51,082 bases of DNA, from positions 1 to 51,082 of the forward strand of contig PKCN01000400.1 in the NCBI GenBank assembly GCA_002862205.1, given 5' to 3'. Source of the DNA: Planctomycetaceae bacterium. GTDB lineage: Bacteria; Planctomycetota; Planctomycetia; Pirellulales; Pirellulaceae. Every line of letters begins with the position of its first letter. The first letter of the stretch is position 1. This document shows positions 9,239 through 50,904 of the stretch, piece after piece. The notes under the pieces were generated by a model that saw only the letters and a program-made list of their open reading frames with translations, searched no databases and was not told where the DNA came from. A program made the translations under genes and the position numbers.

Positions 9239-9266
9239 ATTTAAGAGTTGTCATTTAAGAGTTGTC
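9239..9266. repeat. 14-bp tandem duplication
   Basis: Two perfect adjacent copies of atttaagagttgtc, 60 bp after the zwf stop codon. Confidence 0.95.
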
Positions 9267-9442
9267 TGAGGGGGGGCGTTCGTGCATTTCCGAACCAACG
9301 GCCGTGCACTCGCTCGGTTCCACCTCACCGATGCTTGATGCAAATCAGACCTGGAGCATTGCATCAACCAATCGTAAGTTTGCGTGTCAACGGAAATCCG
9401 AGTGTTGGCGTAGGTTTCATAGGATGTACACTGACAAGCATG

Positions 9443-9476
9443 CAAGCAGCGAGGCACAGCAAGCAGCGAGGCACAG
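9443..9476. repeat. 17-bp tandem duplication
   Basis: Two perfect adjacent copies of caagcagcgaggcacag in the zwf/EF-hand gap. Unit sequence is unrelated to the neighbouring arrays. Confidence 0.95.
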
Positions 9477-9568
9477 AAGCTTGCTTTGTTTTCGGGTGGG
9501 ATTCGTTGTGACTGCGAAACATCGTGTCTGACCGGTCAAACGCTTGCTCGCAGGCCGACATCAATTGA

Positions 9569-9626
9569 ACCACTCAGATTGTTTACCACTCAGATTGTTT
9601 ACCACTCAGATTGTTTACCACTCAGA
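9569..9626. repeat. 16-bp tandem array upstream of EF-hand ATG
   Basis: Three perfect copies of accactcagattgttt followed by a 10-nt partial copy (accactcaga). The partial copy runs into AGAGG (9624-9628), which sits 7 nt before the ATG at 9636 and is the apparent ribosome binding site, so the array ends inside the translation start region. Confidence 0.95.
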
Positions 9627-9635
9627 GGCTGCACT

Positions 9636-10550
9636 ATGTGTCCATCCACTTATGCTCGAACTGGGCTTTCTGCGTTATCAGTGCTTTTTGCCGGCTCAAT
9701 ACTTCTGGTGGGGGTTGTTGTCGCACAGCCACCGCAACGGACACGAGGGAGTCAGGACGGACGCTCCCAAGGGCGGAGTCCCGAGTTGCTGTTGCGTTCT
9801 CTGCCGGTGCTGATTGCGTTGGATTCCAACTCGGATGGTGTGATCTCGAAGTCGGAAATCGAAAATGCGAGCAAATCCCTCCAGTCGCTCGACAAAAACA
9901 AGGATGGCCAGCTGACGAGTGACGAGATGCGTCCCGATTTCTCTGTGATTCGACGTCGTTCCAGCGATCCCAGTGGCTTGGGAGGGGGCGATGATGGCAG
10001 TTCTCGAGCTGGAGCTTCCGTGAAAGGTCGCGAAAATGAGATGGTGGCTCGATTCATGAAAATGGATGAAGACAAAGATGGCAAGTTGAGTTCAGGCGAA
10101 GTGCCTGAACGACTACGAGCTTTTTTCGGGAGAGCTGATCAAAATGAGGATGGATTTGCAACACGTGAAGAGCTGCTTGCCGCGGCATCGCGCGCGATGC
10201 GCACGAATGGAAAGAATGCACCGCCTATGCAGCGTGAGGCAGGTCAACGAGGGCGGCAGCGTGATTCCGAGCAGTTTTTTGCCCGTATGTTTGAACAGCG
10301 AGATGCTGATAAAGATGGCAAACTGAGTGCCGACGAAATGCCAGAGCAAATGGCAGGACGGCTGCAGCAGATTGATACTGATGCCGATGGCTTTGTTTCG
10401 CGAAAAGAGATGGAGGCAATGGTGTCCCGATTCGGGAGTCGTGGAGGTGGGCAGAAAAATCGGGCAGGAGGAAAATCCAGTTATGGTGCCGATGGTTCCA
10501 GTGGTGGACGCCCAGGTGGCGAAGTGCCACGCCGCCCCGAGGCCGAGTGA
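9636..10550 (+). CDS. secreted EF-hand calcium-binding protein
   Basis: 304 aa with a signal peptide (about 1-32: GLSALSVLFAGSILLVGVVVAQ). Six EF-hand calcium loops occur as three pairs: DSNSDGVISKSE (~62), DKNKDGQLTSDE (~86), DEDKDGKLSSGE (~145), DQNEDGFATREE (~168), DADKDGKLSADE (~224) and DTDADGFVSRKE (~248). Each has Asp at loop positions 1, 3 and 5, Gly at 6 and Glu at 12, so all should bind calcium. Linkers are Ser/Gly/Arg-rich, as is the C-terminal tail. I chose the ATG at 9636 because AGAGG lies 7 nt upstream and the signal peptide starts there; the open frame extends back to 9486 through repeat sequence. Function beyond calcium binding is unknown. Confidence 0.88.
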   Translation: MCPSTYARTGLSALSVLFAGSILLVGVVVAQPPQRTRGSQDGRSQGRSPELLLRSLPVLIALDSNSDGVISKSEIENASKSLQSLDKNKDGQLTSDEMRPDFSVIRRRSSDPSGLGGGDDGSSRAGASVKGRENEMVARFMKMDEDKDGKLSSGEVPERLRAFFGRADQNEDGFATREELLAAASRAMRTNGKNAPPMQREAGQRGRQRDSEQFFARMFEQRDADKDGKLSADEMPEQMAGRLQQIDTDADGFVSRKEMEAMVSRFGSRGGGQKNRAGGKSSYGADGSSGGRPGGEVPRRPEAE

Positions 10551-10583
10551 GAGCTTGTTGTGATCAACGACTCTCGGGTTTTT
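10549..10583 (+). terminator. intrinsic terminator of the EF-hand gene
   Basis: Interrupted stem GAGAG-ctt-GTTG / CAAC-ga-CTCTC with a tgat loop, followed by ggg and TTTTT (10579-10583). The left arm begins inside the TGA stop codon of the EF-hand gene, so the hairpin forms flush with the end of translation. It lies between convergent genes. Confidence 0.7.
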
Positions 10584-10696
10584 ATTCAGATGCGTGCGAA
10601 TTTCAACACGCATGGATTTAGTGCGTGAGCACAGCAGTCATGTCCCCATCAGGACAAGTTGCCAATGATGAAGGCTGTTGGCAAGTTATTGACAAA

Positions 10697-11659
10697 CTAC
10701 TCGCCCAACGGTTCGCTGAGGCTTGCGTTTGTCGATTCACTGATGCTTTGCGGCAGTGTGTTGAATGCGCCTTCGCTGCGGATCGGGATAGGCCGGCTGG
10801 ATACTGTTGATGAAGAGTCGGCTGCTTGTGGAGCAGCACCTTGCTTCTCAGACGCAGGGAATGTTGCATTCTTCGGTTTCAGAGTTTCTGGTGGCAGCAC
10901 TTCAGGAATCTGCTCGGTTTGCTCGCCAGCTTTTCCCGATTCACCTTTGTCGGGGCTAAGGTCGATTACTCTGGTCGGGGAACGATCAGTCTGGGTTTCA
11001 CTTTCAGACTCGCTGTTGCGTGAATCATTGCCGCCAAATTCCGGTGTTTCGGGGCCGCGGTCAAGGTTGGGATTGAGTGTCACTTCGAGTTGTTCAGACG
11101 CCCAGTCCCGCCAATCCGAACGGGTCTCAATCAGAATCAGATCTTGCAGTTGCGCGATCACATCCGGGCCACTCTCGCCTAGTCTACGTTTCAAACGGAC
11201 GAGATTGCCCAGGAAGTGTGGCTCAGTAGGATCAATTTCAACGGCTTGGCTGTACAGTTCAAGTGCTTGGGATTTCCGCCCTGCTGTCTCAAGTGCCAGT
11301 CCCAGATTGTAGTAAACCGCGGGATCTGACGGCATCAATTCCATCGCGCGTTCAAATGACAGAACGGATTGATAAAGCTTGCCATCGTCAAATTGCAGTA
11401 GTCCAAGGTTGTTGTGAGCTGGGCCATACTCGGGATCAGCGTCGATCGCTGACAGCAGCTTTTCCAGTGCGTAGTCTCGTTTACCGTTCTCCAATGCGTT
11501 GACGCCAGCCAAGGTCAATCGTTGAGCCTTGACAGGATTTCGGCTTGACTCAATTCGGATGAGTGAACCTTCGTGGTCATTGAATGTCGCGCAACCAACC
11601 GTTCCCACCAGCAGCAATGCGGTGGCGAATGCTGAACAGGGGATGCATCTTGCCCTCAT
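10697..11659 (-). CDS. TPR lipoprotein closing the type II secretion operon
   Basis: 320 aa. The N-terminus is a lipoprotein signal with lipobox ALLLVGTVGC (lipidated Cys about residue 24). Residues 60-175 hold at least three TPR-like repeats (GPAHNNLGLLQFDDGKLYQSVLSFERA; PAVYYNLGLALETAGRKSQALELYSQAVEIDP). The C-terminal 120 residues are acidic, Ser/Pro-rich and probably disordered. I chose ATG 11659 because the signal peptide starts there; a GTG at 11761 would overlap gspM. It is the last gene of the minus-strand secretion operon, 91 bp after the gspM stop. A pilotin- or PilF-like role in secretin assembly is a reasonable inference from position and TPR content, not shown by sequence. Confidence 0.75.
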   Translation of the reverse strand: MRARCIPCSAFATALLLVGTVGCATFNDHEGSLIRIESSRNPVKAQRLTLAGVNALENGKRDYALEKLLSAIDADPEYGPAHNNLGLLQFDDGKLYQSVLSFERAMELMPSDPAVYYNLGLALETAGRKSQALELYSQAVEIDPTEPHFLGNLVRLKRRLGESGPDVIAQLQDLILIETRSDWRDWASEQLEVTLNPNLDRGPETPEFGGNDSRNSESESETQTDRSPTRVIDLSPDKGESGKAGEQTEQIPEVLPPETLKPKNATFPASEKQGAAPQAADSSSTVSSRPIPIRSEGAFNTLPQSISESTNASLSEPLGE

Positions 11660-11750
11660 CCGTGAATTGCCCGAAGAATGTGACGACGGAAAGCCGTTGC
11701 TTCTGGATTGTTCCCACCTGAATTTGAATCGCGACGGGTGGGAGGTGTAA

Positions 11751-12290
11751 TTACCTGGCACTTTTCGGGGAAAAGATCATTTGGGTCAATACCAAAGTCG
11801 CCTTCCATGATTCAGCACGGCTTCCTTGAGATCCATTTCGCGGCTCAGTGAGCGTTAAATCTCGTACCAAGGTCCCTGTCTCTTCATCCCTCAGGTTTTC
11901 GCAGAATGCGACGATTTGGGACAAGCTTGCCGGAGCGAGATCAATTGTCGTGGCTCGAAGTTCAAAATCTGAGCGATCGATGCGTTGAGGGGCAATGGGT
12001 TCCTCACGCAGTAAACTCGATTCAGGTAATCCGGCAGCCGTTCTTGCCTCAGCAATGCGATTGGTAATCTCAGCGGGCGACTCAAGCCGCAGAGCGGCGA
12101 CTTTGGGAATCGTCTTCAAGCGATTGATATCATTTAACATCGCTTGAATCTCGCCCAAATCATGCACTGATTGCTCCAAGCGTTTCTGCTTTGCTTTCGT
12201 TTCCATGAAGCCAATTGCCGCATAAATACCCATGACCACAAGGGCGATGGAAATCAATCGGCGTTGGCGTGTGGCATTCACTCTTGTCAT
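11751..12290 (-). CDS. gspM: GspM-like type II secretion protein
   Basis: 179 aa with one N-terminal membrane anchor (LISIALVVMGIYAAIGFME, ~11-29), a short coiled-coil-prone helix (KAKQKRLEQSVHDLGEIQAMLNDI, ~32-55) and a ferredoxin-like periplasmic region, ending in a family-like strand (WKATLVLTQMIFSP). GspM partners with GspL on the inner-membrane platform. Sequence similarity in this family is low, so the call rests mainly on architecture and on position directly after gspL, with ATGA overlap at 12287-12290. Confidence 0.7.
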   Translation of the reverse strand: MTRVNATRQRRLISIALVVMGIYAAIGFMETKAKQKRLEQSVHDLGEIQAMLNDINRLKTIPKVAALRLESPAEITNRIAEARTAAGLPESSLLREEPIAPQRIDRSDFELRATTIDLAPASLSQIVAFCENLRDEETGTLVRDLTLTEPRNGSQGSRAESWKATLVLTQMIFSPKSAR

Positions 12291-13762: not shown

Positions 13763-14379
13763 TTTAAACTCCGCTTTCGATTGTTGTTGCGATTCCCGCC
13801 CGGACCTTTGTTCTTCTTCTGTTTGCGTTGAAGCATCAAGACTGTCGATTTGCCGCGGTAGGTGAGCGTTACCTGTTCGGATTTGATGCTCGCGATTGCA
13901 ACTCCGTCGGGATCGACTTGCAGGATGTCACCGACTCCTTTGACATCAAATTGACCGTTGGCATCAGCGATAATGGCGAGGCTGTTATTGGACTCGATGA
14001 TCGTTCCCACTAAAGTCAAGTTGAGTTTGGGCTCGGGCTTGGGGCGTGGAACTGCGGGAGCAACAGGTTTTGTTGAAACGGGCGGTGCTGGTTCAGGATC
14101 GTACAGGGGTGCACGCAGTTGCCGCTGTGTCATTGCCGCAGTGATTTTCAAATCAGTTTTCTCGGTAGTGTTTGAGTCTGTCGTTGGACCGGATTGCACT
14201 TCGGGTAGGACGGGCTTGGATTCGCTGATGGCTGAAACTGACCAGTAAATGACAGCAGCAGAAAATACCAGCAAGCAGGCTGTTGCAAACGTCAGGTACT
14301 GTCGTTGTCGTTGCAGTTCCATTTGGGAATTGGACTCGCTAGAGAGAAAAACGTTGTTTCTGTGCGACGCCGTCTGCAT
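13759..14379 (-). CDS. gspC: GspC-like type II secretion protein (HR domain)
   Basis: A short cytoplasmic tail, one membrane anchor (YLTFATACLLVFSAAVIYWSV), a Pro-rich linker (APPVSTKPVAPAVPRPKPEPK) and a small beta domain resembling the HR/PilP domain (LNLTLVGTIIESNNSLAIIA; VGDILQVDPDGVAIASI; VTLTYRGKSTVLML). The HR domain connects the platform to the secretin. There is no PDZ domain; the chain ends in a basic tail (KQKKNKGPGGNRNNNRKR). Start is uncertain: GTG/ATG at 14382/14379 overlap gspK by about 40 nt, while ATG 14322 (MELQRQRQYLTF) lies just after the gspK stop. None has a good SD. Confidence 0.72.
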   Translation of the reverse strand: MQTASHRNNVFLSSESNSQMELQRQRQYLTFATACLLVFSAAVIYWSVSAISESKPVLPEVQSGPTTDSNTTEKTDLKITAAMTQRQLRAPLYDPEPAPPVSTKPVAPAVPRPKPEPKLNLTLVGTIIESNNSLAIIADANGQFDVKGVGDILQVDPDGVAIASIKSEQVTLTYRGKSTVLMLQRKQKKNKGPGGNRNNNRKRSLK

Positions 14380-15343: not shown

Positions 15344-15884
15344 GGTGATGGATCACCTCTTTCCAAATGATCGTGCCATCATCATTGCGGATGGTCACTC
15401 GAAAAGACTCTGGGATTTCTGGTAGTCCCCCAGTCTCAGCCAGTGGCAATGTGTCTTCGTCACGTTCGGTGAAAGCCAATGGGTCGATTGATAGGGCACC
15501 AAAGCCGATCCACAGTGGTTCCCATTTGTTACCATCAATCGTTCTGGCCAACAGACGCTTGCCGTTCACTTTGCGAAGAGCATATTGGACACGCCCTGCA
15601 CGCAGTGAAATGGCGCGGCCTGAAGGTTCGCGGGATAGAAAACCATGGAGCGTTACTCCATTGGCGTCGACTTGCATGCCCCTCGCATTTATAAAGTCCA
15701 TTCGTAATTGTCTGGTCAATGCAGCAGGGGAAGATTGCCGCGATTCGTCACGCTGCAGTTGTTGTGTCTGCTTCAGGGTCGACCAGACGATTCCAAGAAT
15801 GGCTGTCATCATCATTGACGTGAGAAGGGCCGAAACGACCAGCTCAATCAGAGTAAATCCGGTGTGCTGTTGGCGGTGCCTCAT
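15333..15884 (-). CDS. gspJ: GspJ-like minor pseudopilin
   Basis: 183 aa. Type IV prepilin signal HTG-FTLIELVVSALLTSMMMTAILGIVW: cleavage after Gly9, Glu at +5, short six-to-nine-residue leader rich in basic residues. The C-terminal part is a beta-rich globular domain as in GspJ. The ATG overlaps the gspI stop as ATGA (15881-15884). Part of the tip complex with GspI and GspK. Confidence 0.82.
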   Translation of the reverse strand: MRHRQQHTGFTLIELVVSALLTSMMMTAILGIVWSTLKQTQQLQRDESRQSSPAALTRQLRMDFINARGMQVDANGVTLHGFLSREPSGRAISLRAGRVQYALRKVNGKRLLARTIDGNKWEPLWIGFGALSIDPLAFTERDEDTLPLAETGGLPEIPESFRVTIRNDDGTIIWKEVIHHHES

Positions 15885-16348
15885 GGCTCAAGTGCCTTCA
15901 CCACACGCGTTGATGCAAGCAGGTTCAGTTGGGAGTCAGCCTGCCGCTGAATGATCTGCAACTGAATGATAAGCACTGGGATTTGGGCGAGCGTTGTTTC
16001 CGCAGTTACGCGTGTTCGCCAAGTCCAATTTGGATGTTCAGGGATCGTTCCTGTTGCAAACGGCGGAATTCCGCTACGACTTGCTGACATGCGGTTGAGT
16101 AAGTCATCTGAAATTTGCAATGCGGCAATTTTGGATCGAGCTTGCCGGATCTGTTTTTGATGGGCCGAGAATGCCAGTAAGGATGCTACGACAACGGTTG
16201 CCATCAGGGTTAAGCCAACGACCACCTCGATGAGGGTAAAAGCACGACTGTGGTGAGAGTGCAATGATTTATGGTCCGAGGATTTAAGGTCCGCGGATTC
16301 AGCGTCCGAGGATTTAGAGTGCGAGGATTTAGAGTGCGAGAATCTCAT
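15881..16348 (-). CDS. gspI: GspI-like minor pseudopilin with repeat-encoded leader
   Basis: 155 aa. I chose ATG 16348 because GGAAGAGG lies 3 nt upstream, the best SD of the operon; the frame also opens at a GTG at 16393. The prepilin core is SRA-FTLIEVVVGLTLMATVVVASLLAF with cleavage after Ala36 rather than the usual Gly and Glu at +5. The leader is unusually long, 36 residues, and 30 of them are six pentapeptides (RFSHS, KSSHS, KSSDA, ESADL, KSSDH, KSLHS) encoded by a 15-bp tandem array. The mature part is a normal minor pseudopilin. Overlap with the gspH end is 20 nt and falls inside the array. Confidence 0.83.
   Translation of the reverse strand: MRFSHSKSSHSKSSDAESADLKSSDHKSLHSHHSRAFTLIEVVVGLTLMATVVVASLLAFSAHQKQIRQARSKIAALQISDDLLNRMSASRSGIPPFATGTIPEHPNWTWRTRVTAETTLAQIPVLIIQLQIIQRQADSQLNLLASTRVVKALEP
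16256..16345 (-). repeat. six-unit 15-bp array inside the gspI leader and across the gspH stop
   Basis: Six 15-bp units in the gspI frame, plus-strand forms agagtgcgagaatct, agagtgcgaggattt, agcgtccgaggattt, aaggtccgcggattc, atggtccgaggattt and agagtgcaatgattt. On the coding strand units start AAATCC or GAATCC and read KS/ES-xxx. The gspH stop codon (TAA, 16329-16331) lies at the first unit junction, and the following four junctions also contain a stop in the gspH frame (TAA, TGA, TAA, TAA). Divergence among units shows the array is not brand new. Confidence 0.95.
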
Positions 16349-18460: not shown

Positions 18461-18511
18461 CTGAAAAGGATAACGTCGTGATCGATTGATTCGAGTGTTG
18501 TATTCAGTCTA

Positions 18512-22855: not shown

Positions 22856-22879
22856 GGACGCTATGGAGGACGCTATGAA
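22856..22879 (+). repeat. 12-bp duplication creating an SD-ATG pair
   Basis: ggacgctatgga is followed directly by ggacgctatgaa. The first copy supplies GGAGG (22865-22869) at 5 nt from the ATG in the second copy (22875), so the duplication makes a good ribosome binding site for the leader ORF at 22875. Confidence 0.85.
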
Positions 22880-35259: not shown

Positions 35260-36369
35260 TCAGACTTTGATCAACTTGCTGACACGTCCTCCACGAACCC
35301 ATTCAGTGACGAAAATATTACCATCTGCATCAAAACATGCATCATGTGGATGAACGAATTTTCCGGGGATCCATTTTTTGGGACTGGTCCGCATCGCTTC
35401 TTTCTTGTCGAGGACTCGGTTACGCCACGCTTCATCATCGCCGAGTTGGGCTAGCGTTTTGTTGTCAGGCCCCAGAATCGTAATCCGCGCATGTAAGTCT
35501 GGCACGAGTAACAGATCACCTTGGCTGTCGATGTCAGCGGGAAACAGAAAACCATTCTGGGTGCGGAGGTGGTTGCCGTTCATGTCGAACCATTGAAGTC
35601 TTGAATTGGCACGGTCAGCAACGACGAGTTTCGGAGTCCCGTCCCTTGCATCAAGCCATTGTCCATGAGGTGTGCGGAACTGTCCGTTTTGTTGCCCCGG
35701 TCCGCCAATTGCTTTTATGAAGTTGTCCTTTGCGTCGTACTGGTAAAGGTAGGCGCTGCCGTAACCGTCGCCGAGATAATAACCCCCGTCAGGGCGGAAA
35801 CTGATATTGGTGGGACGGAACCCAAGTTTCTTGCCCGCGAATCCAGCGTGCTCGAAAATCTGATCTCGATCGCGTGTCCATACAAGTTCACCTGTGAGTG
35901 ACATCTTGGCGAAAGACTTTTTCGCGTACGAGGCAGAAAGGTAAATGAACTCTTCGTTTCCTTCGCTTCGAATGTCGATGCCATGGCCACTGGCTGCAGA
36001 CGAGTCACCTTTTTTGACGCTATGGAATCCAGCAAGACTTTTGACGAATTTTCCCTCAGGGTCAAACACGTAAACAGAGTCGGGTGTGCCTGTGTGCGTG
36101 ATATAGACATATCCCCGACTGTCAACGCAGACACCATGCGATGCATTGCCGTAATCGTGGGTCGAAGGCAGATTGTGTCGCCCCCAGTGATGAATGACCC
36201 GGTAGGTGTGTTCTCCTGACCCAATGACGGGCTCTTGGCTACCCGACTTGTCATCGGCGTTGAGGATCAAAGGGGCTGCCATGGTCGAAAGTGCAGCGGT
36301 CGCCCGTGTGGTGCTGGACAGGAAGTGTCGGCGGCTTGTTGAATGGCGGCTTGTTGAATGATTGGGCAC
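35260..36369 (-). CDS. Tat-exported NHL-repeat propeller protein
   Basis: 369 aa. Twin-arginine signal SRRHFLSSTTRATAALSTMAAPLILNA. NHL-type blades follow (GVCVDSRGYVYITHTGTPDSVYVFDPEGKFV; ISFRPDGGYYLGDGYGSAYLYQYDAKDNFI; LVVADRANSRLQWFDMNGNHL; CFDADGNIFVTEWVRGGRVSKL). Similar to 6-bladed propellers of the peptidylglycine lyase type, but no lyase activity can be claimed. Start is GTG at 36369; codons 4-13 are a perfect 15-bp duplication encoding HSTSR twice, extending the Tat n-region. It follows the cytochrome gene by 147 bp on the same strand and may receive electrons or substrate from it (inference). Confidence 0.87.
   Translation of the reverse strand: MPNHSTSRHSTSRRHFLSSTTRATAALSTMAAPLILNADDKSGSQEPVIGSGEHTYRVIHHWGRHNLPSTHDYGNASHGVCVDSRGYVYITHTGTPDSVYVFDPEGKFVKSLAGFHSVKKGDSSAASGHGIDIRSEGNEEFIYLSASYAKKSFAKMSLTGELVWTRDRDQIFEHAGFAGKKLGFRPTNISFRPDGGYYLGDGYGSAYLYQYDAKDNFIKAIGGPGQQNGQFRTPHGQWLDARDGTPKLVVADRANSRLQWFDMNGNHLRTQNGFLFPADIDSQGDLLLVPDLHARITILGPDNKTLAQLGDDEAWRNRVLDKKEAMRTSPKKWIPGKFVHPHDACFDADGNIFVTEWVRGGRVSKLIKV
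36331..36360 (-). repeat. 15-bp in-frame duplication in a Tat n-region
   Basis: Two perfect copies of gcggcttgttgaatg (plus strand), codons 4-13 of the NHL-protein gene, encoding HSTSR-HSTSR right before the Arg-Arg pair of the Tat signal. Confidence 0.95.
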
Positions 36370-36484
36370 AGTGTTTGCCTGCGGGGATAGAGAGCGGTTG
36401 ATTGTGGGGATTGGATCGAAATGCTTGATCAGGATTGCCGGGGGGGTGTGCTGATGACCGAGTTTCGGTTTCTAACCGACAAAT

Positions 36485-36525
36485 GTTGATCGAGGGCGTG
36501 TTGATCGAGGGCGTGTTCATCGAGT
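36485..36525 (-). repeat. 15-bp array across the cytochrome-gene stop codon
   Basis: Two perfect copies of gttgatcgagggcgt (36485-36499, 36500-36514) plus a partial, slightly altered copy gttcatcgagt (36515-36525). The partial copy contains the TGA stop (36517-36519) of the large heme-binding protein gene, so the array grew outward from that stop codon. Confidence 0.92.
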
Positions 36526-39500
36526 TGGAACGTGGTTGATCGTCCAGTAGAGTTCTTCTGCGAAATCAGTTCCGTCCGCTGCTTTGATGCGGATCTTGAG
36601 TTGAACTTGGTCAGCAGGAATCATATCTCGGATGTTCAGTTTTACACTTCTTGCGTCCGATCCTAATGTCACGGATTCAATTTTGATGCGTTCGCTGCCA
36701 CGTTTGTCGGTCAGGGGCGAATAACGATCTGAACCATAACTGCTTCGCCAGTGATAATTCCAATGCTCGGCCTCGTATGACCCGACATCGGTGACGCTGT
36801 TTGGTTCAAGAGGGAAGTTGAATTTTATCAGCAATCCATCTTTCTCAACCTTGCAGTCGGTGACCATGTGCCATGGCTTTCCGGTGTAACGCACGCGTTG
36901 CAACCCGCCGTCCAGTAAACCGGCGCGGCCCCCGCCGTTCCAGCCTTGCAACCCCGTTGCATAGACCTGCCCATCCATGGGGTTGACTCGAGCACGCATG
37001 ATTCCAGTACGAAAATCAAACGGCAGTTTGGCAATCGCGGCCTGGGTGTGACCCTCGATATCCTGAATCATCATGTAGGACATCCAGCCCTTGCCAAAAC
37101 TGGTGTGCAGCAGGTGCCCGGATAAGGGGCCCCAGCGATCGTCGTCGACCCAAAGTTGACCGCCGGATGAGTTGTCGAAATCCTGCGGCATCCAGACGAG
37201 CGGAGGATCAAACGAAGACGGGGGTACCACCTTCTTGACGTCAATCGTTCCGCCGCCCGGTTCCCACATACCGGGAATGGAATACGTTTGCACCCAGCCA
37301 TAAAATCCGTCGGGTTTGAGCAGGCTCACTTTGGATGCGGGGGTCCATTGACCCTGATTGTCGCTCGCTGTGGGGCGCCCGTCTGGAAGCATTCCCATTC
37401 CATTGGGTGTGCGGAAGCCTGTGCAAAAAACTTCCCGGTGTTTTCCGTCAGGTGATATTTTGATCACAGCACCAGGCAGTTTAGAGTCTGCGCCGTGGCC
37501 ACTTTTGCTGTAGTAGAAGTTGCCTTCTGCGTCTGTTTGAAGATCAAAGTTGAAAGCATGGAAGTTGACAGAAACATCCATGTCCGGACTGAAACTTTCA
37601 TGGAAGTCTGCTTCTCCATCCTGATTGAGATCATGTAACTTGATGATCCGGTCCTTGCAGGTGACAAAGACCTGGTTGTCCACGACCTTCACGCCGAAAG
37701 GTTCATATAAGCCCGCGGCAAACCGTTTCCAGCGAATGTCGGTTAGTTCATTGTCGATCCCGGAGACAATCCAGATGTCCCCGCCGTAAGTCGATAATGC
37801 CATGCGACCATCAGAAAAGAAGTCGAGTGCCGATGTCCGAAACCAGGTGTTCCACGGATTCGATTCCGGTAGTGTCAGCGTATCCAATGCGTAACCGTAT
37901 GGCTGCAGACCTGGATAGCCCACTGTGTGCAGAACTTGTGGCCACCGCGCGGGCCCACCGGAAATCATGCCAGCGGGAATGACCGCATGTGGTTGATTGT
38001 TGGATCGCAAGGATGAAAGCCATCTCACTAGTTCTGGTTTCTTTTTGCCCTGTGACCGATGGATCGTGATGTTGCGTGTCTTGTGGTCCTCTGGTAATCG
38101 AAGACAAAGGCGTTGCTTTTCATCAATATCCCACTTCAAACCAGCAGCATCGCCCATTACCACCGCTGCCGTATAGCGAATTACCCGGCCTTGGTCATGC
38201 TGATAGCTGATCACGAAGCAGTTTTCCGCTGTGCTGCTCGACACGGTCGGAGCGTCTGGTTTCAAGCCATCGCTCAGCTTATGGATGGTGTTGCGTGTCT
38301 TGACTTGCGTGGCTGGATCAGCCGGGTTTTGCGCCTCGGCAACTGACAGAACCAAAGGGACACCACCCATGATCTGCATCGTGTGGGCCAGCCCTTTCTC
38401 AGATCGAGTTGGGACTTCCAGGATTTCTCTGCCATCAATCGAATAACTCAGCACAACCCGCTCAGCATGGTTGTAATGCCCCTTGTAGTCCATCCAGCGA
38501 GTTGGCATCGGTCCTCGAGGTAGTAGTTGGTCTCGGGGGTAATCGAGTGATCCATCGTGTCCCCATGCCCAGCCAGACCAGGCTTCAATCGTTTTTCCCG
38601 CTGGGGTGACTGTGCCTTCTCCGCGATCCCGCGTGTGTTGGGTTTGGGTAAGGTTGAGTCCACCGGGCCACACGCCCGCTTGATCCATCGAATGCAGGTC
38701 ATAGGAAATCGTGGTGCCGCCGAGATCCACGTTCAAGACACTGCTACGCTCACGTCCCAATTGTGATGCCAGAGTATTGCCGTAATCACGCCGGATTTCA
38801 GGCTGTTCCGAGCCATTGCGTGTCCCCTCGGGCAGGTTTTCCAAGTACTCCTTGTCGACTTTGAAATAGTCGGGGTTGGAGGGTTTCATGAATTGTTCGC
38901 GAATGTAATGCACGACCTGATAACGCTCTTTGGGAGTCAGGTGGCGCATTGCAGCCATGAGGCCCTTGCCGTTGGACAGTGTCATGAACATCTGGAAGGG
39001 ATCAGAGCCATAACGCATCTTGTCGGTACCAAAAGCACGCGCGGTGGGAAGCGAAGGTGTGTTGCCGTCGTTGCCGTGGCAATTGAAACAATAGCCATGG
39101 TAGATGCCCTTACCCGTTTCATAGTCGCGACTGCGCAGTTTGCCGATGATGCCGGCATGGTCAAGATCAACCGTGTCATCCTTGAATTGGAGTTGGTCGG
39201 GGCGTGGCATCAACTCCCCGGCCCGAGTAGCGCCTCCCTCTGCAAGTTCGATCAGATAACGTGTGAGATCAAGAAAGTCACGGAGGTTGCCGATGGTTGC
39301 GACCAAGCCGTCAGGCATCATTGATTGCGTGTTCGTCTTGATTGCTTCAATGTCGTCTTTGGCGATCACACGAGTTCGATCCAAGTCGTTCGCAGAGCGT
39401 ACGCTGATCGTGTCCTCGTTCTCGCTGGTGACAAGAGCGACAATGACTTCACCATTTGTTGTCAGGATTGATTTTGTTTCATAGCCTTTGTGGATGACTT

Positions 39501-39837
39501 TCGAGGGATTCAGCAGCGATTCGATCAAATGTGTATCAGAGACCTTTCTGATTGCTGTCAGGTCAGGACCCAGGGGTGGAGCGTGCTTGCTTGCCGCTGC
39601 ATTGCGTGCTGTGTGGCAGTGAACGCAGGATGCGGCTGATGTGTAAAAAACCAACGCGCCCCGTTTCGCATCACCACGTTGTCTCGCTTGAGCAGCCAGA
39701 TCCTCGTAGGACGTCATTTTCAGTTGTGTCACGAAAGGCATCGGTGATCGGACTGTTTCAGACAATGCCTCGAACTCGGCTACACAGACTGACAGGCAGG
39801 CGATGAAGACGATTTTTGTGTTCAACAGGAGATGCAT
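36517..39837 (-). CDS. large secreted c-type cytochrome / heme-binding propeller protein
   Basis: 1,106 aa. A signal peptide starts at ATG 39837 (MHLLLNTKIVFIACLSVCVA). Two heme c sites: C71-VH-C74-H75 and C250-FN-C253-H254. Between them is the planctomycete heme-binding domain (LGPDLTAIRKVSDTHLIESLLNPSKVIHKGYE). Residues ~330-600 are a jelly-roll-like region (DLHSMDQAGVWPGGLNL; TRWMDYKGHYNHAERVVLSY). Residues ~640-1010 form a beta-propeller resembling sugar dehydrogenases (WFRTSALDFFSDGRMALSTYGG; GFRTPNGMGMLPDG). It probably oxidises a sugar-like substrate in the periplasm, passing electrons to its hemes (inference). The frame opens further to 39894 through a purine array. Confidence 0.87.
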   Translation of the reverse strand: MHLLLNTKIVFIACLSVCVAEFEALSETVRSPMPFVTQLKMTSYEDLAAQARQRGDAKRGALVFYTSAASCVHCHTARNAAASKHAPPLGPDLTAIRKVSDTHLIESLLNPSKVIHKGYETKSILTTNGEVIVALVTSENEDTISVRSANDLDRTRVIAKDDIEAIKTNTQSMMPDGLVATIGNLRDFLDLTRYLIELAEGGATRAGELMPRPDQLQFKDDTVDLDHAGIIGKLRSRDYETGKGIYHGYCFNCHGNDGNTPSLPTARAFGTDKMRYGSDPFQMFMTLSNGKGLMAAMRHLTPKERYQVVHYIREQFMKPSNPDYFKVDKEYLENLPEGTRNGSEQPEIRRDYGNTLASQLGRERSSVLNVDLGGTTISYDLHSMDQAGVWPGGLNLTQTQHTRDRGEGTVTPAGKTIEAWSGWAWGHDGSLDYPRDQLLPRGPMPTRWMDYKGHYNHAERVVLSYSIDGREILEVPTRSEKGLAHTMQIMGGVPLVLSVAEAQNPADPATQVKTRNTIHKLSDGLKPDAPTVSSSTAENCFVISYQHDQGRVIRYTAAVVMGDAAGLKWDIDEKQRLCLRLPEDHKTRNITIHRSQGKKKPELVRWLSSLRSNNQPHAVIPAGMISGGPARWPQVLHTVGYPGLQPYGYALDTLTLPESNPWNTWFRTSALDFFSDGRMALSTYGGDIWIVSGIDNELTDIRWKRFAAGLYEPFGVKVVDNQVFVTCKDRIIKLHDLNQDGEADFHESFSPDMDVSVNFHAFNFDLQTDAEGNFYYSKSGHGADSKLPGAVIKISPDGKHREVFCTGFRTPNGMGMLPDGRPTASDNQGQWTPASKVSLLKPDGFYGWVQTYSIPGMWEPGGGTIDVKKVVPPSSFDPPLVWMPQDFDNSSGGQLWVDDDRWGPLSGHLLHTSFGKGWMSYMMIQDIEGHTQAAIAKLPFDFRTGIMRARVNPMDGQVYATGLQGWNGGGRAGLLDGGLQRVRYTGKPWHMVTDCKVEKDGLLIKFNFPLEPNSVTDVGSYEAEHWNYHWRSSYGSDRYSPLTDKRGSERIKIESVTLGSDARSVKLNIRDMIPADQVQLKIRIKAADGTDFAEELYWTINHVPTR

Positions 39838-39856
39838 GAGGAGGGCAAACAATCGA

Positions 39857-39929
39857 GGGGAAACAAAGAAGGGGAAACAAAGAAGGCGAAACAAAGAAGG
39901 GGAAATACAAAGAAGGGGAAATACAAGGA
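39857..39929. repeat. purine-rich tandem array, 14- and 16-bp units
   Basis: ggggaaacaaagaa twice, ggcgaaacaaagaa once (14 bp), then ggggaaatacaaagaa and ggggaaatacaagg (16-bp form). It lies 20-90 bp upstream of the cytochrome-gene ATG and, as minus strand, is a pyrimidine tract that could affect its 5' UTR. Confidence 0.9.
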
Positions 39930-46500: not shown

Positions 46501-48160
46501 CAGCGAGGTTCTGACCGTCATTGATGATGAGGCAGCGTTGTTGATCGTTTCGATTGCACCCTCTGATGTGGCTGAAGGAACAGTCGCGACAGGAACCGTT
46601 GAACGTAACACTGGAACAGTCGGTGCGTTGGTAGTGACGTTGTCCAGTAGTGATGACGGCGAGGCAAGCGTGCCAACAACGGTAACGATTCAGGATGGTC
46701 AGAGCAGTGCGCAGTTCGTGGTCACTGGCGTTGAAGATGGCTTTGTCGATGGAAATCAAACGGTCGATATCACTGGATCTTCTGATGGGTTCAATTCAGG
46801 GGTCGGCACTGTCAGTGTGCTTGACGTCGATGTTCCCACTTTGATTGTCGAAATTGTTGCTGACGAAGTTGCCGAGAACGGAGTGGTGACGGCCACCGTC
46901 ACCCGCAACACCGATACAGGTACTGCCCTGACTGTTGACCTTGCCAGTACAGATAGTCAAGAAGCGTATGTTTCTCCGAATGTCGTGATCCCAACCGGAG
47001 CTGCAAGTGCAACCTTTGATGTGTACGGGCAGATTGATGGTATTGTGGATGGCACTCAAACGGTGCTCATCACAGCCAATGCCACCGACTTTGTTCAAGG
47101 GAGTGATTCCATTGATGTCACGGACATCGATTTCGAGGAAACAGACCTGTTTTACTTCTCACGCAAGAACAGCGGCAACGTTGACGGTGTCCTGTTCCAA
47201 AATGAAGACATTGTCGCTTATGACGGCAACGAATTTCGAGTCTTCTTTGATGGGACGCCGTGGGTGAGTGGGTACACACTGGATGCGTTCTACATTCAGG
47301 ATAATGGCGATATCCTGATGTCCTACAGTGTTGCTGGCTCAGTTTCAGGGGCTTCTCTTTCCTTTGATGATTCAGACATCGTGAAGTTCTCGCCAAGTAC
47401 TCAGACCTGGGAAATGTACTTCGATGGAAGTGACGTGGGGCTGACCAGTAATGGTGAAGATGTTGATTCAATCGGTTTTGCACCGGACGGTCGACTCGTG
47501 ATTTCGACGAGCGGGTCCAGTTCGACAAATGGACTCAGTTCCCGTGATGAAGATATAATTGTGTTCAATCAAAGTTCACTCGGCGCGAATACCGATGGCA
47601 GTTTTGAGATGTACTTCGACGGCAGTGACGTGGGATTGTCGACCTCCTCGGGTGAAGATGTGGATGCGATCTCGATCACCCGTGATGGAACGATTTACAT
47701 GTCAACGGTTGGCAGTTTCAGTGTCACTGGTATCAGTGGCCGCGATGAAGACGTGTTTGTTTTTGAACCCTCAACTCTGGGATCCAGCACCAGCGGCACA
47801 TTCCGACCAGAGCTTTACTTCGATGGTAGTGCTTACGGTTTTGGAAATGATGTTGGAGGACTGCAGGTAGCAAATCCGCCGGGCAGTGGTTCGGGCAACG
47901 TTGCGGCGGCTCCTGGGCCGGGAAGCGGAGTTCCCGATGGTCTGATGGTGCTGATGGATTGGGAGCCTGAGGTGCCAGTTTCTGCCCCTGCTGAGGTTGT
48001 GGGACCACTGACCTTTGCTCAGTGGAAATCTCTGGCGAACAGCGAATCTGCACTTGAGACAGTGACTGCCATTAAACAACCAACTTCCAACGATAAGGTA
48101 TCCGAAGAGGAGACCCTCTTGATGTGTCTGGATGAAGTACTCGCCGAGTGGGGAATTTAA
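40574..48160 (+). CDS. giant surface protein: metzincin-like protease, GATase-like blocks and Calx-beta repeats
   Basis: 2,528 aa from ATG 40574 (AAGGAA upstream). N-terminal basic motif RRLFELLESRRLLAADG is the LE(S/P)RxLLA export motif of large planctomycete proteins. A metzincin-like domain (~150-380) has HEVGHALGLSH (283-293) and a candidate Met-turn GPIMGSGYY. A pre-peptidase-like module and a cadherin-like repeat (INVLENDSDPQNG; VTYTPNAGFVGTDTFTY) follow. A GATase-like block LFVDDDQG...LFLVGQDILYNGVSS occurs at 615-829 and 1456-1670; it is followed by Calx-beta-like repeats with VDGDQ calcium motifs, one plus five and one plus four. The C-terminus has four FDGSDVGL-type repeats. The two halves are an 841-residue (2,523-bp) duplication. 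A cell-surface or secreted adhesin/protease is the likely role. Confidence 0.9.
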   Translation: MRQTSKTRERLNRRVATRRRLFELLESRRLLAADGAFDWMSPGHWHSGWEMSYAEFVHHSPQGPMAENAYDDYLNDLGGNSCGDGDGDDPPHGPGCACGPCTASQGSTLFVERPEQAFDFIVGGGGSSGDSASAALADTFLLHSLPAANHTIYLDFDGHVTEGTTWNSQSGYSSIVSPAYDPGGNGASFTDAELAQIQGIWKRVAEDFAPFEINVTTEDPGAAALSKTGGSDAQWGSRVVVTEDWDNCGCGGFAYLTSFNDSVDEPVFVFTTSATGVSAATTHEVGHALGLSHDGTTAGAEYYNGHGSGDVGWGPIMGSGYYKNMTTWDTGQYYQANNGQDDWQIITNNNGFGFRQDDHGGSGSNFSSLVIEGTNSSDSSLSDVSGFGVISQANDQDWFEFKTGSGAINLTVDSYVQETFVSNGVGFTRSIEPSPEGDQGSNLDVLATIYDSNLNVVATSNPATGLSASFNNLSLTEGTYYIAVDGTGYGNWAANPPTGFDQSVSRGQYLIAGTVVSVDQTLNAGNDFATTQVDTPVDINVLENDSDPQNGSFSITSMTDPSNGQTSEVNGVVTYTPNAGFVGTDTFTYTITDDQAETATATVTVTVVPPSPPVLFVDDDQGQTFERFYTAALDANTTAYDTWQVSSQGLPVAADLAPYDVVVWNTGFDYSAAEAGLSTNEQVALSSYLDGGGGLFLVGQDILYNGVSSTFQTDYLKLATFTSDVRNLSQYVGVSGSSISDGMNLSFSLPSDFNADWSDSLSPTAAGEGVFYRNSVNTAAEPFNTIAYGGEDFRVVFMASPFEGISTTAGNPNNQAFVMQKVVDFLMPPTAPAGDVIVTEPTPSAVTTEAGGSVSFTVALTQEPVADVSFDVSSSNVNEGTVDVSQLTFTSGNYSVPQTVTVTGVDDSVVDGSVSYTVVLGTASTTDSNYVGLNPDDVNLTNVDDDDPVLILTLSGTEVAETGTLSATVTRNTTTGSPLIVNLASSDAGEAVVPETVTIAAGATSAEFTITGVDDSVVDGDQPATVSVDLSGYQGDSAGIIVTDSNQPALSLSLAEASISEFGGSTIGTVTRNGAGPELAVQVFSSDESEAIVGSVTIAAGATTGDFTILAVDDFIVDGDQTSTISVGAAGYVGASEVLTVTDNEVARLSVTIATTDVAEGSTTTAVVTRNTGTSGELLVTLSSSDFGEASVPATVTIADGQDNVEFAISGVEDGIVDGDQTATITASVAGYVPGNEVVTVVDTDGPTLALTFSASSVSEAGGVITATLSRNTSSSASLEVAVSNDDPTAASVPAAVTIPAGQSSVTFEVTGVDDDLVDGDQTAVITASAGGFVAGSASVLVVDDDIATLSLNIDIDSISEADGSTTAILSRNTPTDDPLVVQLQSSDESEATVPASVTIPAGGTSVTVEISIIDDQEYDGTQNVVVTATVDGFVAGVDSFDVTDDDPPPPDPLILFVDDDQGAAYERFYTAALDANALNHDTWDVNSQGLPTASDLSDYLVVVWNTGFEYSAAGSGLATAEQALLSAYLDGGGGLFLVGQDILYNGVSSAFQSDYLKLSSFTSDARNLSQYVGVSGSAISDGMNLSFSLPSDFSADWSDALAPAPAAEGVFYRNSVNNESQPFNTIAYGGEDFRVVFMASPFEGISASAGNPNNQAFVMDKVIGFLMPPAVATGDVIVSEPTPSAVTTEAGGAVQFTVALTEAPTADVSFSVSSSNVDEGTVDVGQLVFTPSDWSSPQTVTVTGVDDSVVDGDVGYSIILGVSSTTDFNYAGLDPDDVALDNADDDSATLTLDLGDQVVAEGSTLGGVVSRNTDTGLPLTVNLGSSDVGEASVTATVTIPAGSSSAQFLITGIDDAFVDGDQQVLISTELSGYAGASGTVTVVDATVPALSLALADAAISENGGATTGTVTRNGSGDAVTLVVTSSDPSEALVGSLTIAAGETTGTFEITAQDDADVDGDQEVVITVDAGGYTADSEVLTVIDDEAALLIVSIAPSDVAEGTVATGTVERNTGTVGALVVTLSSSDDGEASVPTTVTIQDGQSSAQFVVTGVEDGFVDGNQTVDITGSSDGFNSGVGTVSVLDVDVPTLIVEIVADEVAENGVVTATVTRNTDTGTALTVDLASTDSQEAYVSPNVVIPTGAASATFDVYGQIDGIVDGTQTVLITANATDFVQGSDSIDVTDIDFEETDLFYFSRKNSGNVDGVLFQNEDIVAYDGNEFRVFFDGTPWVSGYTLDAFYIQDNGDILMSYSVAGSVSGASLSFDDSDIVKFSPSTQTWEMYFDGSDVGLTSNGEDVDSIGFAPDGRLVISTSGSSSTNGLSSRDEDIIVFNQSSLGANTDGSFEMYFDGSDVGLSTSSGEDVDAISITRDGTIYMSTVGSFSVTGISGRDEDVFVFEPSTLGSSTSGTFRPELYFDGSAYGFGNDVGGLQVANPPGSGSGNVAAAPGPGSGVPDGLMVLMDWEPEVPVSAPAEVVGPLTFAQWKSLANSESALETVTAIKQPTSNDKVSEEETLLMCLDEVLAEWGI

Positions 48161-48530
48161 TCCCAGCCGCTGTGTTGACCGGTGATGCGACCTACGCGTG
48201 GGTTGGGTGAAACTCGCGGCGATAATAGTGCCCGCTCGCTGTTGCTTGAGGTTGCAATCGAACGTTCGTTGAGTGTTTGCGAGTGATCTGACGCGTAACC
48301 GCGGTGGCATTGGTCAGAGTAAGTATTGTTCATCTCGGACCGCTGCACTGTCGAGGGACCATTGCATCACATGACAGAGCTTGTTTGCGGTTGCGGAACC
48401 GCAGGTGCAGTGTCTTGCCTTGAAATCGCAAGTCCTGTCGGCGCCGCCGAAATGTTCGTTGGCTGTGCCAGTTTCCCCAAAAATCTGTCTGATGCCTGTC
48501 CATCACCGCAGAGATTTGGGAAGGGGTTTT
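48161..48530. other. 370-bp convergent intergenic region
   Basis: No gene that I can support; short overlapping frames only. A hairpin TGCGGTT/AACCGCA with loop gcgg lies at 48386-48403, without a U tract. No clear terminator for the giant gene. Confidence 0.5.
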
Positions 48531-48797
48531 TCAACAGCACTGGGTGAGTGCTTCGTCAACGATTCGATCATGTTCCTGCTTGGCTTCGATCAGGAATTCG
48601 AGTTGTTCGGTTGTGAGGAACCCCATTTGTTTTGCGAGTTCACCAAACAGTATTTTGCAGTCCTTCTGTTCGTCGCATACGCGAACCACCTGTTCGGTGG
48701 TGAGCAGCCCGTTTTGTACCGCTATCTCACCGATGGGTTGAACCCTGAGCCGAATCGACAAAGGTACTTCTTGCTGATTTGATTTGTGGAAAACCAT
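48531..48797 (-). CDS. small MshEN-like protein
   Basis: 88 aa from ATG 48797. The core IGEIAVQNGLLTTEQVVRVCDEQ ... FGELAKQMGFLTTEQLEFLIEAKQEHD contains the paired G(E/x)...GLLT.EQ repeats of MshEN/GspE N-terminal domains, which in some proteins bind c-di-GMP. The motif is a half-domain, with two short repeats instead of the full ~54-residue MshEN unit twice. The frame is open upstream to 49118, and that extra part (GKVHFRRAGLLIQQDFFS) has no clear character. No SD at either start. It may be a free-standing regulator related to secretion/pilus ATPases. Confidence 0.55.
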   Translation of the reverse strand: MVFHKSNQQEVPLSIRLRVQPIGEIAVQNGLLTTEQVVRVCDEQKDCKILFGELAKQMGFLTTEQLEFLIEAKQEHDRIVDEALTQCC

Positions 48798-49276
48798 CGC
48801 ACGCTGCCCCGAAGTTGAAAAGAAGTCTTGCTGAATCAACAGCCCTGCCCGTCTGAAATGTACTTTGCCAATCGGGGCTGGGACGGCATCAACATTGGTT
48901 TTTCGAGAAAAACGTTCAGGTTGGGGAAGCCATATGTTTTCGATATTCAACCCTGTAATATTTTCAGCTTTTCGCTCTGCCCAGCAAACGCTGGCGATCC
49001 TTGCTTTGCTTGTGTTGTGAACCGTCCGTGTCGTCGTTGAGATGGGACGCTGGTATCGCATGCATTTCCCGAGGTGAATGAACTGACCATTCATGCGGAT
49101 GCGTCGTTGGTTCAGCAACGTTATCTTGGCAGTGAGGACTTACCTTCAAGTCACATCGATGCACGTGGGTTGTTTGTCTCTTGTGTCAACGCACAGAGCT
49201 CAACTTGCATTGGTTTTTCATTCATGTATGCCGAGGCAGAGATGAGTCTACGAGTCAAAAGAATTGGGAACAGAAA

Positions 49277-50560
49277 GTGAATCGAGATTTATTGCATCCG
49301 CGGGATGAAATCATGAAAACGATGGAGCGGATCTATCGGTATCGAATGACCACAACATCGGGCGGTAACTTGTCGATTCGAGATCAGACTGGGAATATCT
49401 GGATCACTCCAGCGAGGGTCGATAAGGGGAATTTACAGCGAGGTGATATCGTTTGTGTTCGGTCGGATGGAACGGTTGAGGGAAAACACCCACCCTCTTC
49501 CGAGTTTCCGTTTCACCGATCCATCTATGATGTCCGACCTGATGTGAATTCGATCGTGCATGCCCATCCGGTTGCACTTGTCGCTTTCAGTATTTGCCAG
49601 CAGATACCCGAGACAAGATTGTTTCATCAGGCGCATGCAGTATGCGGACGCACTGGTTTTGCAGAATATGCATTGCCCGGCAGTGAGGCGTTGGGCAATG
49701 TCATCGCTGAACAGTTTCGTGCAGGTTGCGATAGCGTCATTTTGGAAAATCACGGAGTGGTGGTAGGGGGAGATTCCCTGTCCCATGCATTTCAGCGGTT
49801 CGAGGCGTTCGAGTTTGCAGCCAAGACAATCATCAAGGCCAAACAATTGGCGGAAGTGCGTTATTTGTCAGAGAGCCAATTACAGCAGGCGCATGAGAGG
49901 ACTGTCAGAATTGAGTCATTCACCCCACTTGATGCATCAATCGGGGAGCGGGAGTTACGGAAGGATTTGTGTGAGTTTATTCAGCGAGGCTGTCGGCAAC
50001 GCCTGTTGATCAGTACAGAGGGAAGCTTTTCTGCGCGTGTCGATGATCAATCATTCTTGATCACTCCGACGCATCAGGATCGGGAGAGCCTTGCAATGAA
50101 TGACTTGGTTTTAGTCAAACAGGGGCAGATGGAGGATGGGAAAAAAGCAAGTCGTGCAGTGGTGGCACATCAGGCCATTTATCAGCGGCATCCAGCGGTT
50201 CAAGCAATCGTCTTTGCTCATCCAGTCAATGCCACCGCATTCAGCGTGACTGGAGCCTGTTTTGATGCACGGACCATTCCCGAAAGCTATGTATTTCTGC
50301 GTGATGTTGCAGACGTGCCCTACGGAATTCAGTATCGCAATGATGGCCAGATTGCTGATCATGTATCCAGTGAAAAGCCAGTTGCCATTTTGGAGAATGA
50401 TGGTGTCTTGGTGACGGGAAGTACCGTTCTTGACGCCTTTGATCGTTTGGAAGTATTGGAGGCAACAGCCGAGGCGGTGATCAATTCCAGAGCAATCGGT
50501 GATGTTTCTTCGATGTCATCTGAAACAATCACTGAATTGCGGAAAGCATTCAATCTTTAA
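49277..50560 (+). CDS. tandem class II aldolase/adducin-domain protein
   Basis: 427 aa from GTG 49277; the frame extends upstream to 49181 without family residues. The first domain (about 8-205) is complete: [10 protein letters not shown] (substrate loop), PPSSEFPFH with the catalytic-position Glu, zinc ligands in HAHPVAL (His95, His97) and LENHGVVV (His159). The second domain (about 225-425) keeps the fold ([19 protein letters not shown]) but not the site: FAHPVN has Phe313 in place of the first His, LENDGVLV has Asp375 in place of the third, and the Glu loop reads KASRAV. So one active half and one degenerate half are likely. Substrates in the family are sugar phosphates; the actual one is unknown. 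Confidence 0.88.
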
Positions 50561-50599
50561 TGAAAGGGGACTCGGTCTTTAATGAAAGGGGCCTCGGTT
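50556..50599 (+). repeat. 22-bp duplication spanning the aldolase stop codon
   Basis: Two adjacent 22-bp copies beginning tttaatgaaagggg and ending ctcggt(c/t), with two mismatches. The first copy contains the TAA stop of the aldolase gene (50558-50560); the second repeats the same sequence downstream. Confidence 0.92.
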
Positions 50600-50683
50600 T
50601 TGAAACCGCGATCTCGTGGTCCGGTAGCTGCAGGTGGAGGTCGAGGGGGCACGCCAACTTTGGGGACCGCACTCGCATACAAG

Positions 50684-50758
50684 AAATCCACACACTTGAA
50701 ATCCACACACTTGAAATCCACACACTTGAAATCCACGAGTTGGAAATCCACGAGTTGG
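50684..50758 (+). repeat. five-unit 15-bp array related to the gspI array
   Basis: Three copies of aaatccacacacttg followed by two of aaatccacgagttgg. Aligned with a gspI unit on its coding strand (AAATCCTCGCACTCT), 11 of 15 positions match, and the shared frame reads KSTHL / KSTSW against KSSHS. The array lies 124 bp after the aldolase stop. Confidence 0.93.
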
Positions 50759-50868
50759 AAATCTCAGGCCTCTTGAAGTTTTAGCTGCTTGGCAGGTCAA
50801 CAAGATCGATAATCACTGCACCAAACACCTGCCAGCCAAGTATTTCCAACAAGACACATGAGTTGCCT

Positions 50869-50904
50869 GCGATCTTGGTTCGGCGGGCGATCTTGGTTCG
50901 GCGG
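50869..50904. repeat. 18-bp tandem duplication near tRNA-Cys
   Basis: Two perfect copies of gcgatcttggttcggcgg followed by a partial copy (gcgatc to 50910). It lies 60 bp downstream of tRNA-Cys on the tRNA's strand. Confidence 0.95.

Follow-up and report, generated by a model that had tools for sequence, protein, structure and literature searches.

Short tandem arrays with units of around 15 bp in a planctomycete genome, and their placement relative to genes

The stretch analysed here, positions 1 to 51,082 of contig PKCN01000400.1 from the Planctomycetaceae bacterium assembly GCA_002862205.1 (hereafter the window, at its full 51,082 nucleotides), carries three tRNAs, a glucose-6-phosphate dehydrogenase gene and a T2SSG gene, and its relatives are planctomycete records, the named ones among which place the organism in the Rhodopirellula/Rubripirellula group. 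Adjacent to the T2SSG gene are two genes that a preliminary description made from the sequence alone called gspH and gspI, both N_methyl by Pfam; a further gene named 'Tat' there has NHL repeats by Pfam. Scattered among these genes are tandem arrays of short units, the subject of this study. The arrays of the window as found by Tandem Repeats Finder (TRF) are as follows, with any further basis in brackets, a strand where one is assigned, and CDS for called coding sequence.

4574..4610: 18-bp unit, a multiple of three, 2.1 copies, in called CDS 3055-4755 (minus strand)
6258..6350: 12-bp unit, 7.8 copies, in CDS 5019-7544 (plus strand), encoding a Pro-rich repeat (translation)
9239..9266: 14-bp unit, two perfect copies, 61 bp 3' of the stop of the glucose-6-phosphate dehydrogenase gene, 7705-9177 (Pfam)
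9442..9480: 17-bp unit, 2.4 copies, intergenic
9569..9626: 16-bp unit, 3.6 perfect copies, ending 9 bp 5' of the called ATG of an EF-hand gene, 9636-10550 (Pfam)
16256..16340, minus strand: 15-bp unit, at least 5 copies, at the gspH stop and gspI prepilin leader, ATG at 16348 (alignment, translation)
36330..36360, minus strand: 15-bp unit, 2.1 copies, an in-frame duplication giving HSTSR HSTSR close to the N-terminus of 'Tat', the protein with NHL repeats (alignment, Pfam)
36484..36524, minus strand: 15-bp unit, 2.7 copies, the first holding the TGA stop of gene 36517-39894 and the later copies lying 3' of it
39842..39921: 14-bp A/G-rich unit (reported as a 28-bp unit too), 4.6 copies, close to the presumed start of gene 36517-39894
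50554..50598, plus strand: 22-bp unit, two copies, the first holding the TAA stop of a class II aldolase-like gene, 49181-50560 (Pfam)
50683..50763: two abutting arrays of 15-bp units, 3.6 and 2.4 copies, whose units have GAAATCCAC in common (sequence)
50869..50910: 18-bp unit, 2.3 perfect copies, intergenic

Eleven of the twelve arrays listed in the preliminary description were recovered (6258, 9239, 9442, 9569, 16256/16266, 36330, 36484, 39842/39856, 50554, 50683 and 50869), and TRF added two unlisted ones with a score of at least 50, at 4574 (unit 18) and at 50728 (unit 15, abutting 50683). The twelfth, a pair at 22856, was not reported even at score 30; about 10 bases match at lag 12 by eye, so short a match that it could be due to chance. 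Five arrays (16266, 36330, 36484, 50683 and 50728), not four as first counted, have units of exactly 15 bp. The contacts with gene ends that had been noted are partly borne out: the array at 16256 lies over the gspH stop and in frame in the gspI leader, those at 36484 and 50554 hold the stop inside their first unit, and that at 36330 keeps the frame of the 'Tat' gene close to its start. The 9569 array ends 9 bp before the called ATG of the EF-hand gene. The protein of CDS 5019-7544, which contains the array at 6258, matched no Pfam family at E 0.001.

Comparison with orthologous sites shows whole units inserted at three of them. Three arrays were compared closely and are clean insertions, one tested array failed, and two were compared less closely. 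In a search of the genus, five loci span the gspH/gspI site, with three further congeners matching only other parts of the query, and the window is exactly 75 bp (5 × 15) longer than all five (G007, G002, G010, G008 and G005); on these aligned sequences the array is a lineage-specific insertion of exactly 75 bp. G007, which is 82% identical in gspG/gspH, has the 15-mer once, as the last four gspH codons plus the stop, and so preserves the ancestral seed in single copy. In the window, gspH ends ...NEILAL-stop, after which its frame continues with ILAL-stop, ILGR-stop, IRGP-stop and ILGP-stop. Because gspI starts inside gspH, the same array is also in frame in the gspI prepilin leader, which has 36 residues before FTLIEV, compared to 11 from the corresponding ATG in G007 (where there is also an in-frame ATG further upstream of gspI). 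This leader (15881-16348, minus strand) ends in Ala before FTLIEV, in place of the Gly seen in five relatives.

The array at 36330 adds 15 bp, in frame, relative to 4/4 congeners. Outside the window, on another contig, a protein that its sequence suggests is methyltransferase-like contains FDVCLFDVCL and is five residues longer than all five homologues reaching the site, its own paralogue included; a weak sixth match, in G003, stops short of the site. In the less close comparisons, the array at 36484 is missing at the corresponding site of G007 and that at 50554 at the site of a named relative (L116). When 77 coding arrays (score of at least 45) were searched by tblastn against the sampled loci, seven were spanned, most of them degenerate repeats in conserved domains.

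We sampled the source genome (G000) in 60 stretches of at most 20 kb, drawn from the first 60 kb of its 20 longest contigs, which together with the window come to 1,238 kb, or 16% of 7.77 Mb. With a period of 12-30 bp and a score of at least 50 as the main count, TRF found 228 arrays, or 18.4 per 100 kb, which by extrapolation gives some 1,400 in the whole genome. Genes were called with a purpose-built small Markov caller (819 genes in the sample, 85% coding), for which starts are approximate and stops are firm where the gene is real. We counted as coding the 70 arrays lying at least 90% inside a gene, and as non-coding the other 158.

Unit lengths of the non-coding arrays form a hump, with 11 arrays at 13 bp, 16 at 14, 29 at 15, 18 at 16, 19 at 17, 16 at 18 and 11 at 19, so that 109/158 have a unit of 13-18 bp. 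Because the score threshold could hide short units, we also considered arrays of at least 2.9 copies, a subset that the threshold cannot shape, and the hump stayed: there were 0-3 arrays at each period from 6 to 12, then 5, 10, 16, 14, 10 and 9 at periods 13 to 18, and 2 at 19. Exact direct repeats of 4-7 bp, the possible substrates of duplication, showed no peak near a spacing of 15 bp and only a slight fall in number from 7 to 40 (counts of 7-bp repeats being small). A hump that owes nothing to the threshold and has no counterpart among substrates implies that the length preference belongs to the process, in keeping with the duplication process of preferred unit length that had been proposed. 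The proposed preference for 15 bp itself survives as the mode of the non-coding arrays within a broad hump of 13-18 bp, not as a fixed length, and missed genes may swell the number of 15s counted outside called genes.

Inside genes the same unit lengths occur as outside, filtered by reading frame. Units were divisible by three in 65/70 coding arrays compared to 62/158 non-coding ones, a retention of frame that speaks strongly against assembly noise and for selection. The 15-bp coding arrays are diverse in translation (SGASQ, FDVCL, KKADE, ASQQA and others), and units are mostly unrelated across the whole set, as the preliminary description had held. A common 10-mer joined 25 pairs of arrays, where uniform composition would predict 14.8. 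Among the matches longer than about 12 bases are those between adjacent arrays at locus L018, as well as one array that is divided over contigs C3 and C7; except for three neighbouring coding arrays of L018 that have a common word, there were no families. With only weak words among the 4-6-mers of units relative to background, and with 25 such pairs against 14.8, we rejected a shared motif or mobile unit. Doubled units folded no better than shuffled ones (mean z of 0.15 in 143 units, 3% below -2), and a hairpin or terminator reading was rejected on that account. No A-bias was seen in the sense-strand units of 79 codirectional arrays (A 0.23 (0.227), G 0.27, C 0.27, T 0.24).

Placement relative to genes departs strongly from uniform. 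In the G000 sample, 136/228 arrays are wholly intergenic, 24 extend across a gene end and 68 are contained within genes, compared to 27.9, 14.5 and 185.7 under uniform placement. Among intergenic arrays, 30 lie within 30 bp of a stop when random intergenic placement predicts 13.2 (none of 400 trials reached 30), and 7 lie within 30 bp of a start when 15.4 are expected. The claim that arrays are anchored at starts and stops is thus right for one half: the arrays and their stop contacts are real, and across the sampled genome starts are avoided. The number of arrays per kb of spacer was 1.55 in convergent, 0.81 in codirectional and 0.64 in divergent spacers (convergent versus divergent, p=0.001); in codirectional spacers 51/77 arrays lie nearer the upstream stop (p=0.006), with 12 overlapping a stop and none a called start. 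Of 18 stop-covering arrays (period 12-30), the stop falls within the unit next to the gene in 15, and the unit length is a multiple of three in 8. Since a duplication over the stop keeps the first copy, the protein is unchanged whatever the unit length, which is the simplest account of the anchoring and agrees with the earlier suggestion that survivors are kept where they cost little. Selection, rather than mutation, would on this account be the cause of the stop bias.

To compare densities we used samples of five congeners and of four genomes from other families of the order, those of G005, G008, G013 and G016 being small (56-100 kb). Among congeners the number of arrays per 100 kb was 14.3 in G008 (8 in 56 kb), 13.5 in G003 (54 in 400 kb), 7.9 in G005 (7 in 89 kb), 5.0 in G011 (10 in 200 kb) and 3.5 in G001 (7 in 200 kb), and the difference from G000 gave p=2e-8 for G001 and p=1e-6 for G011. 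In other families it was 8.1 in G016 (6 in 75 kb), 7.0 in G013 (7 in 100 kb, all coding) and 1.5 in both G017 and G018 (3 in 200 kb each). Arrays of at least 3.9 copies and a period of at least 10 numbered 76 in G000 (61 per Mb) and 16 in G003 (40 per Mb); the samples of G001 and G011, 200 kb each, contained none. Among 51 named loci (797 kb), 47 have 0-2 arrays, and eight occur in the 21 kb of a 'Pirellula' locus (L158), with units of 14-16 and one of 22. Given this unevenness among congeners and named loci, the trait seems to come and go between related species.

Exact-match runs of at least 13 bp peak at lag 15, with 55 in G000 (1.24 Mb) and 24 in G003 (400 kb). When four sampled genomes were each shuffled once by mononucleotide, the total of such runs over lags 4-120 was 0-1, compared to 55 at lag 15 alone in G000, which excludes chance for the array set. 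The G003 sample (L030-L049) also has many exact repeats at lags 65-69 and 101-103, a spacing that we take to suggest clustered regularly interspaced short palindromic repeat (CRISPR) arrays.

The ends of the duplications carry a trace of how they may have formed. For clean duplications we recorded h, the excess match beyond whole units, which decayed outer copies inflate in exact-run counts. Among 53 clean perfect duplications (period of at least 12, non-periodic flanks; 46 from G000 and 7 from five congeners), h was at least 3 in 30. After removal of 17 with unit-like flanks this held for 16/36, compared to about 6% of simulated random duplications, and among two-copy duplications alone for 10/23. 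In coding duplications h was not a multiple of three in 8/15 (h = 1, 7 and 11), which fits whole-unit insertion between short repeats better than a random breakpoint.

These results make it probable, in our judgement, that the genome has experienced a raised rate of short tandem duplication with a step of about 15 nt, through slippage or template switching, followed by selection. A stretch of mostly 13-18 nt (mode 15) would be duplicated, in many cases where direct repeats of 3-11 nt flank it; the simplest route would be that the nascent strand slips or switches template during replication or gap filling. With two copies present, further slippage would add whole units. New arrays would be born in many places and in any sequence. 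Selection would then purge most genic arrays other than those with a unit divisible by three in a tolerant stretch, as well as many arrays in the promoter and leader regions 5' of genes, and would spare those over or after stops, where the first copy keeps the original stop and the protein stays the same. From the pattern as a whole we infer slippage as the act itself and a raised rate rather than slower loss, and the reason for a length of about 15 nt would likewise lie in the process. We accordingly class the arrays as slippage-born repeats, set apart by their unusual frequency, by the preference for a short unit and by a measured pattern of survival on the stop side. Of the interpretation offered in the preliminary description, the duplication process and the surviving copies are retained, and start anchoring and regulatory use are not.

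Several observations weigh against a duplication process of this kind, or limit it. The KKADE array of locus L051 is not a clean insertion, as the gaps in four spanning relatives are 0, 0, 1 and 4 residues where 5 would be expected; relatives differ by whole units in copy number at gspH/gspI and 36330, and not at L051. Units have a composition bias: G+C is 0.534 in non-coding units (background 0.513) and 0.585 in coding units (background 0.525), and the top 5-mer, CCCAG, occurs in 19/158 non-coding units with 5.4 expected. G013 and G016, from other families, also reach 7-8 arrays per 100 kb, in small samples. In codirectional spacers of 600-1500 bp only 5/13 arrays lie nearer the stop, and the enrichment near stops did not extend to the relative G003, where few arrays (22 non-coding) were available and no stop bias was seen. 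In 20/36 filtered clean duplications h was 0-2, implying that microhomology helps and is not needed in every case.

Nor did we find an enzyme defect that would explain a raised rate in G000 among PolA, RecJ and exonuclease VII (Exo VII), other repair genes not having been sought. PolA with its 5'-3' exonuclease domain and RecJ were matched in 13/13 genomes of the genus and Exo VII in 12/13, G000 being included in each case, with the exceptions that PolA of G010 is cut short and RecJ of G007 falls below the cut-off. A simple loss of a flap or single-strand nuclease was rejected because all three are present in G000. In G010 (C31:25538-27298) the PolA frame is open for only 603 residues, with little of the polymerase domain, which could reflect a contig end, a frameshift or a real break.

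Positive selection for functional elements at gene ends (protein-binding arrays, transcription-end signals or sources of small RNAs) with a constant pitch would account for the enrichment near stops and in convergent spacers and for the preferred pitch near 15 bp, and such roles are among those proposed for constant-size Bacillus repeats (PMC8161180) and for Borg repeats (PMC9879509). However, the mostly unrelated units without a strong motif, the folding of doubled units no better than shuffled, the absence of the three closely compared arrays from relatives and the recurrence of the same unit lengths inside genes all make this improbable. The regulatory use at gene ends suggested earlier finds no strong common motif and no excess hairpin folding in its favour. 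The sharp contrast within the genus (61 and 40 arrays of at least 3.9 copies per Mb in G000 and G003, none in the G001 and G011 samples) and a length hump unaccounted for by the supply of substrates would also be expected if units were added actively by dedicated machinery, of integrase-like or polymerase type, that measures off about 15 nt. Yet no candidate gene was found in a search limited to four repair families, and because ordinary slippage with a length preference accounts for the same data, we give such machinery little credence.

End joining, in which staggered double-strand breaks are filled in to leave blunt duplications of the overhang length, predicts the h of 0-2 observed in 20/36 clean duplications. 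It does not predict the excess of h of at least 3 (16/36 compared to about 6%), and it is weakened by the lack of a Ku match in 13/13 genomes of the genus (among 14 control genomes, only Bacillus subtilis matched), so that we regard it as very improbable. That the arrays are sequencing or assembly artefacts might be suspected of a draft in 451 contigs, the more so as 4/28 ends taken as contig ends lie in arrays (the right end of the window not having been verified as a contig end). The first 123 bp of contig C3 (L012:1-123) and of contig C7 (L016:1-123) belong to the same perfect 15-bp array, read from opposite strands, and the assembly may therefore have broken inside one long array; as a sign of copy-number polymorphism these ends are suggestive only. 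The frame kept in 65/70 coding arrays is a strong argument to the contrary, the single-contig genome G003 has many arrays too and the gspH/gspI array is an exact in-frame multiple, all of which leaves an artefact scarcely credible. Against each of these alternatives, we favour duplication at a raised rate followed by selection.

The nearest described system is that of the tandem repeats of Borgs, extrachromosomal elements of archaea, whose units are described as unique, A-rich and mostly perfect (Schoelmerich et al. 2023, PMC9879509). The arrays reported here resemble that description in being scattered, with essentially unique units and a recent independent origin, in having units divisible by three in open reading frames (here 65/70) and first units in gene ends, and in the flanking partial repeats (here h of at least 3 in 16/36, not all arrays). 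They differ from it in lying in a bacterial genome, unevenly within one genus and without A-bias, in the 13-18-bp hump, the measured stop enrichment and start depletion and the single-copy seed in a congener, and in that many are imperfect (62/228 at 100% matches). Constant-size repeats of variable sequence have been described in Bacillus, with lengths of 20-21 or 52 nt and families with conserved short words, in a search with a minimum of four repeats (Subirana and Messeguer 2021, PMC8161180). Like the G000 arrays, these have a species-specific preferred length and little sequence conservation between arrays; unlike them, the G000 arrays have a mode of 15 within a broad hump and no such families, and 107/228 are under three copies.

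In the related planctomycete Rhodopirellula baltica, satellites were counted at 4.06 per Mb (Subirana and Messeguer 2019, PMC6749651), compared to about 61 per Mb here (at least 3.9 copies, TRF), a ratio that is rough because the programs differ. Apart from that count, searches of the open-licence literature yielded no report of the trait in these planctomycetes. Duplications mediated by short direct repeats are also described in yeast rad27 (FEN1) mutants (PMC5677150); that case is a eukaryotic flap-nuclease mutant, whereas here the PolA 5'-3' nuclease domain is present and h is 0-2 in 20/36.

In this bacterial lineage short tandem repeats can be observed at birth, event by event, with the ancestral seed in a congener. 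It suggests a survival rule for such repeats (over stop codons, 3' of genes, and in frame in tolerant protein stretches), and, having array-rich and array-poor species in one genus, makes the genetic cause tractable by comparison; it is also relevant to the questions of why repeat lengths in Bacillus are constant and of how Borg repeats arose. We further consider, as an unlikely idea, that planctomycetes of the Rhodopirellula/Rubripirellula group might possess a switchable activity that duplicates DNA in measured steps of about 15 nt and that is gained or lost between species of one genus. If so, the activity would keep seeding repeats in spacers, leaders, protein tails and disordered stretches, as a bacterial counterpart of the process that fills Borgs.

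Two further features of the window concern the neighbourhoods of its arrays. The EF-hand gene at 9636-10550 and the arrays preceding it (window 9177-10700) seem to be absent at this site in G005, G008 and G010, where a short spacer separates the glucose-6-phosphate dehydrogenase gene from the next match; part of the interval is matched by a stretch of G002. In the abutting arrays at 50683-50763, GAAATCCAC is common to both and the remainder of the unit differs, as if a changed copy had re-seeded an array.

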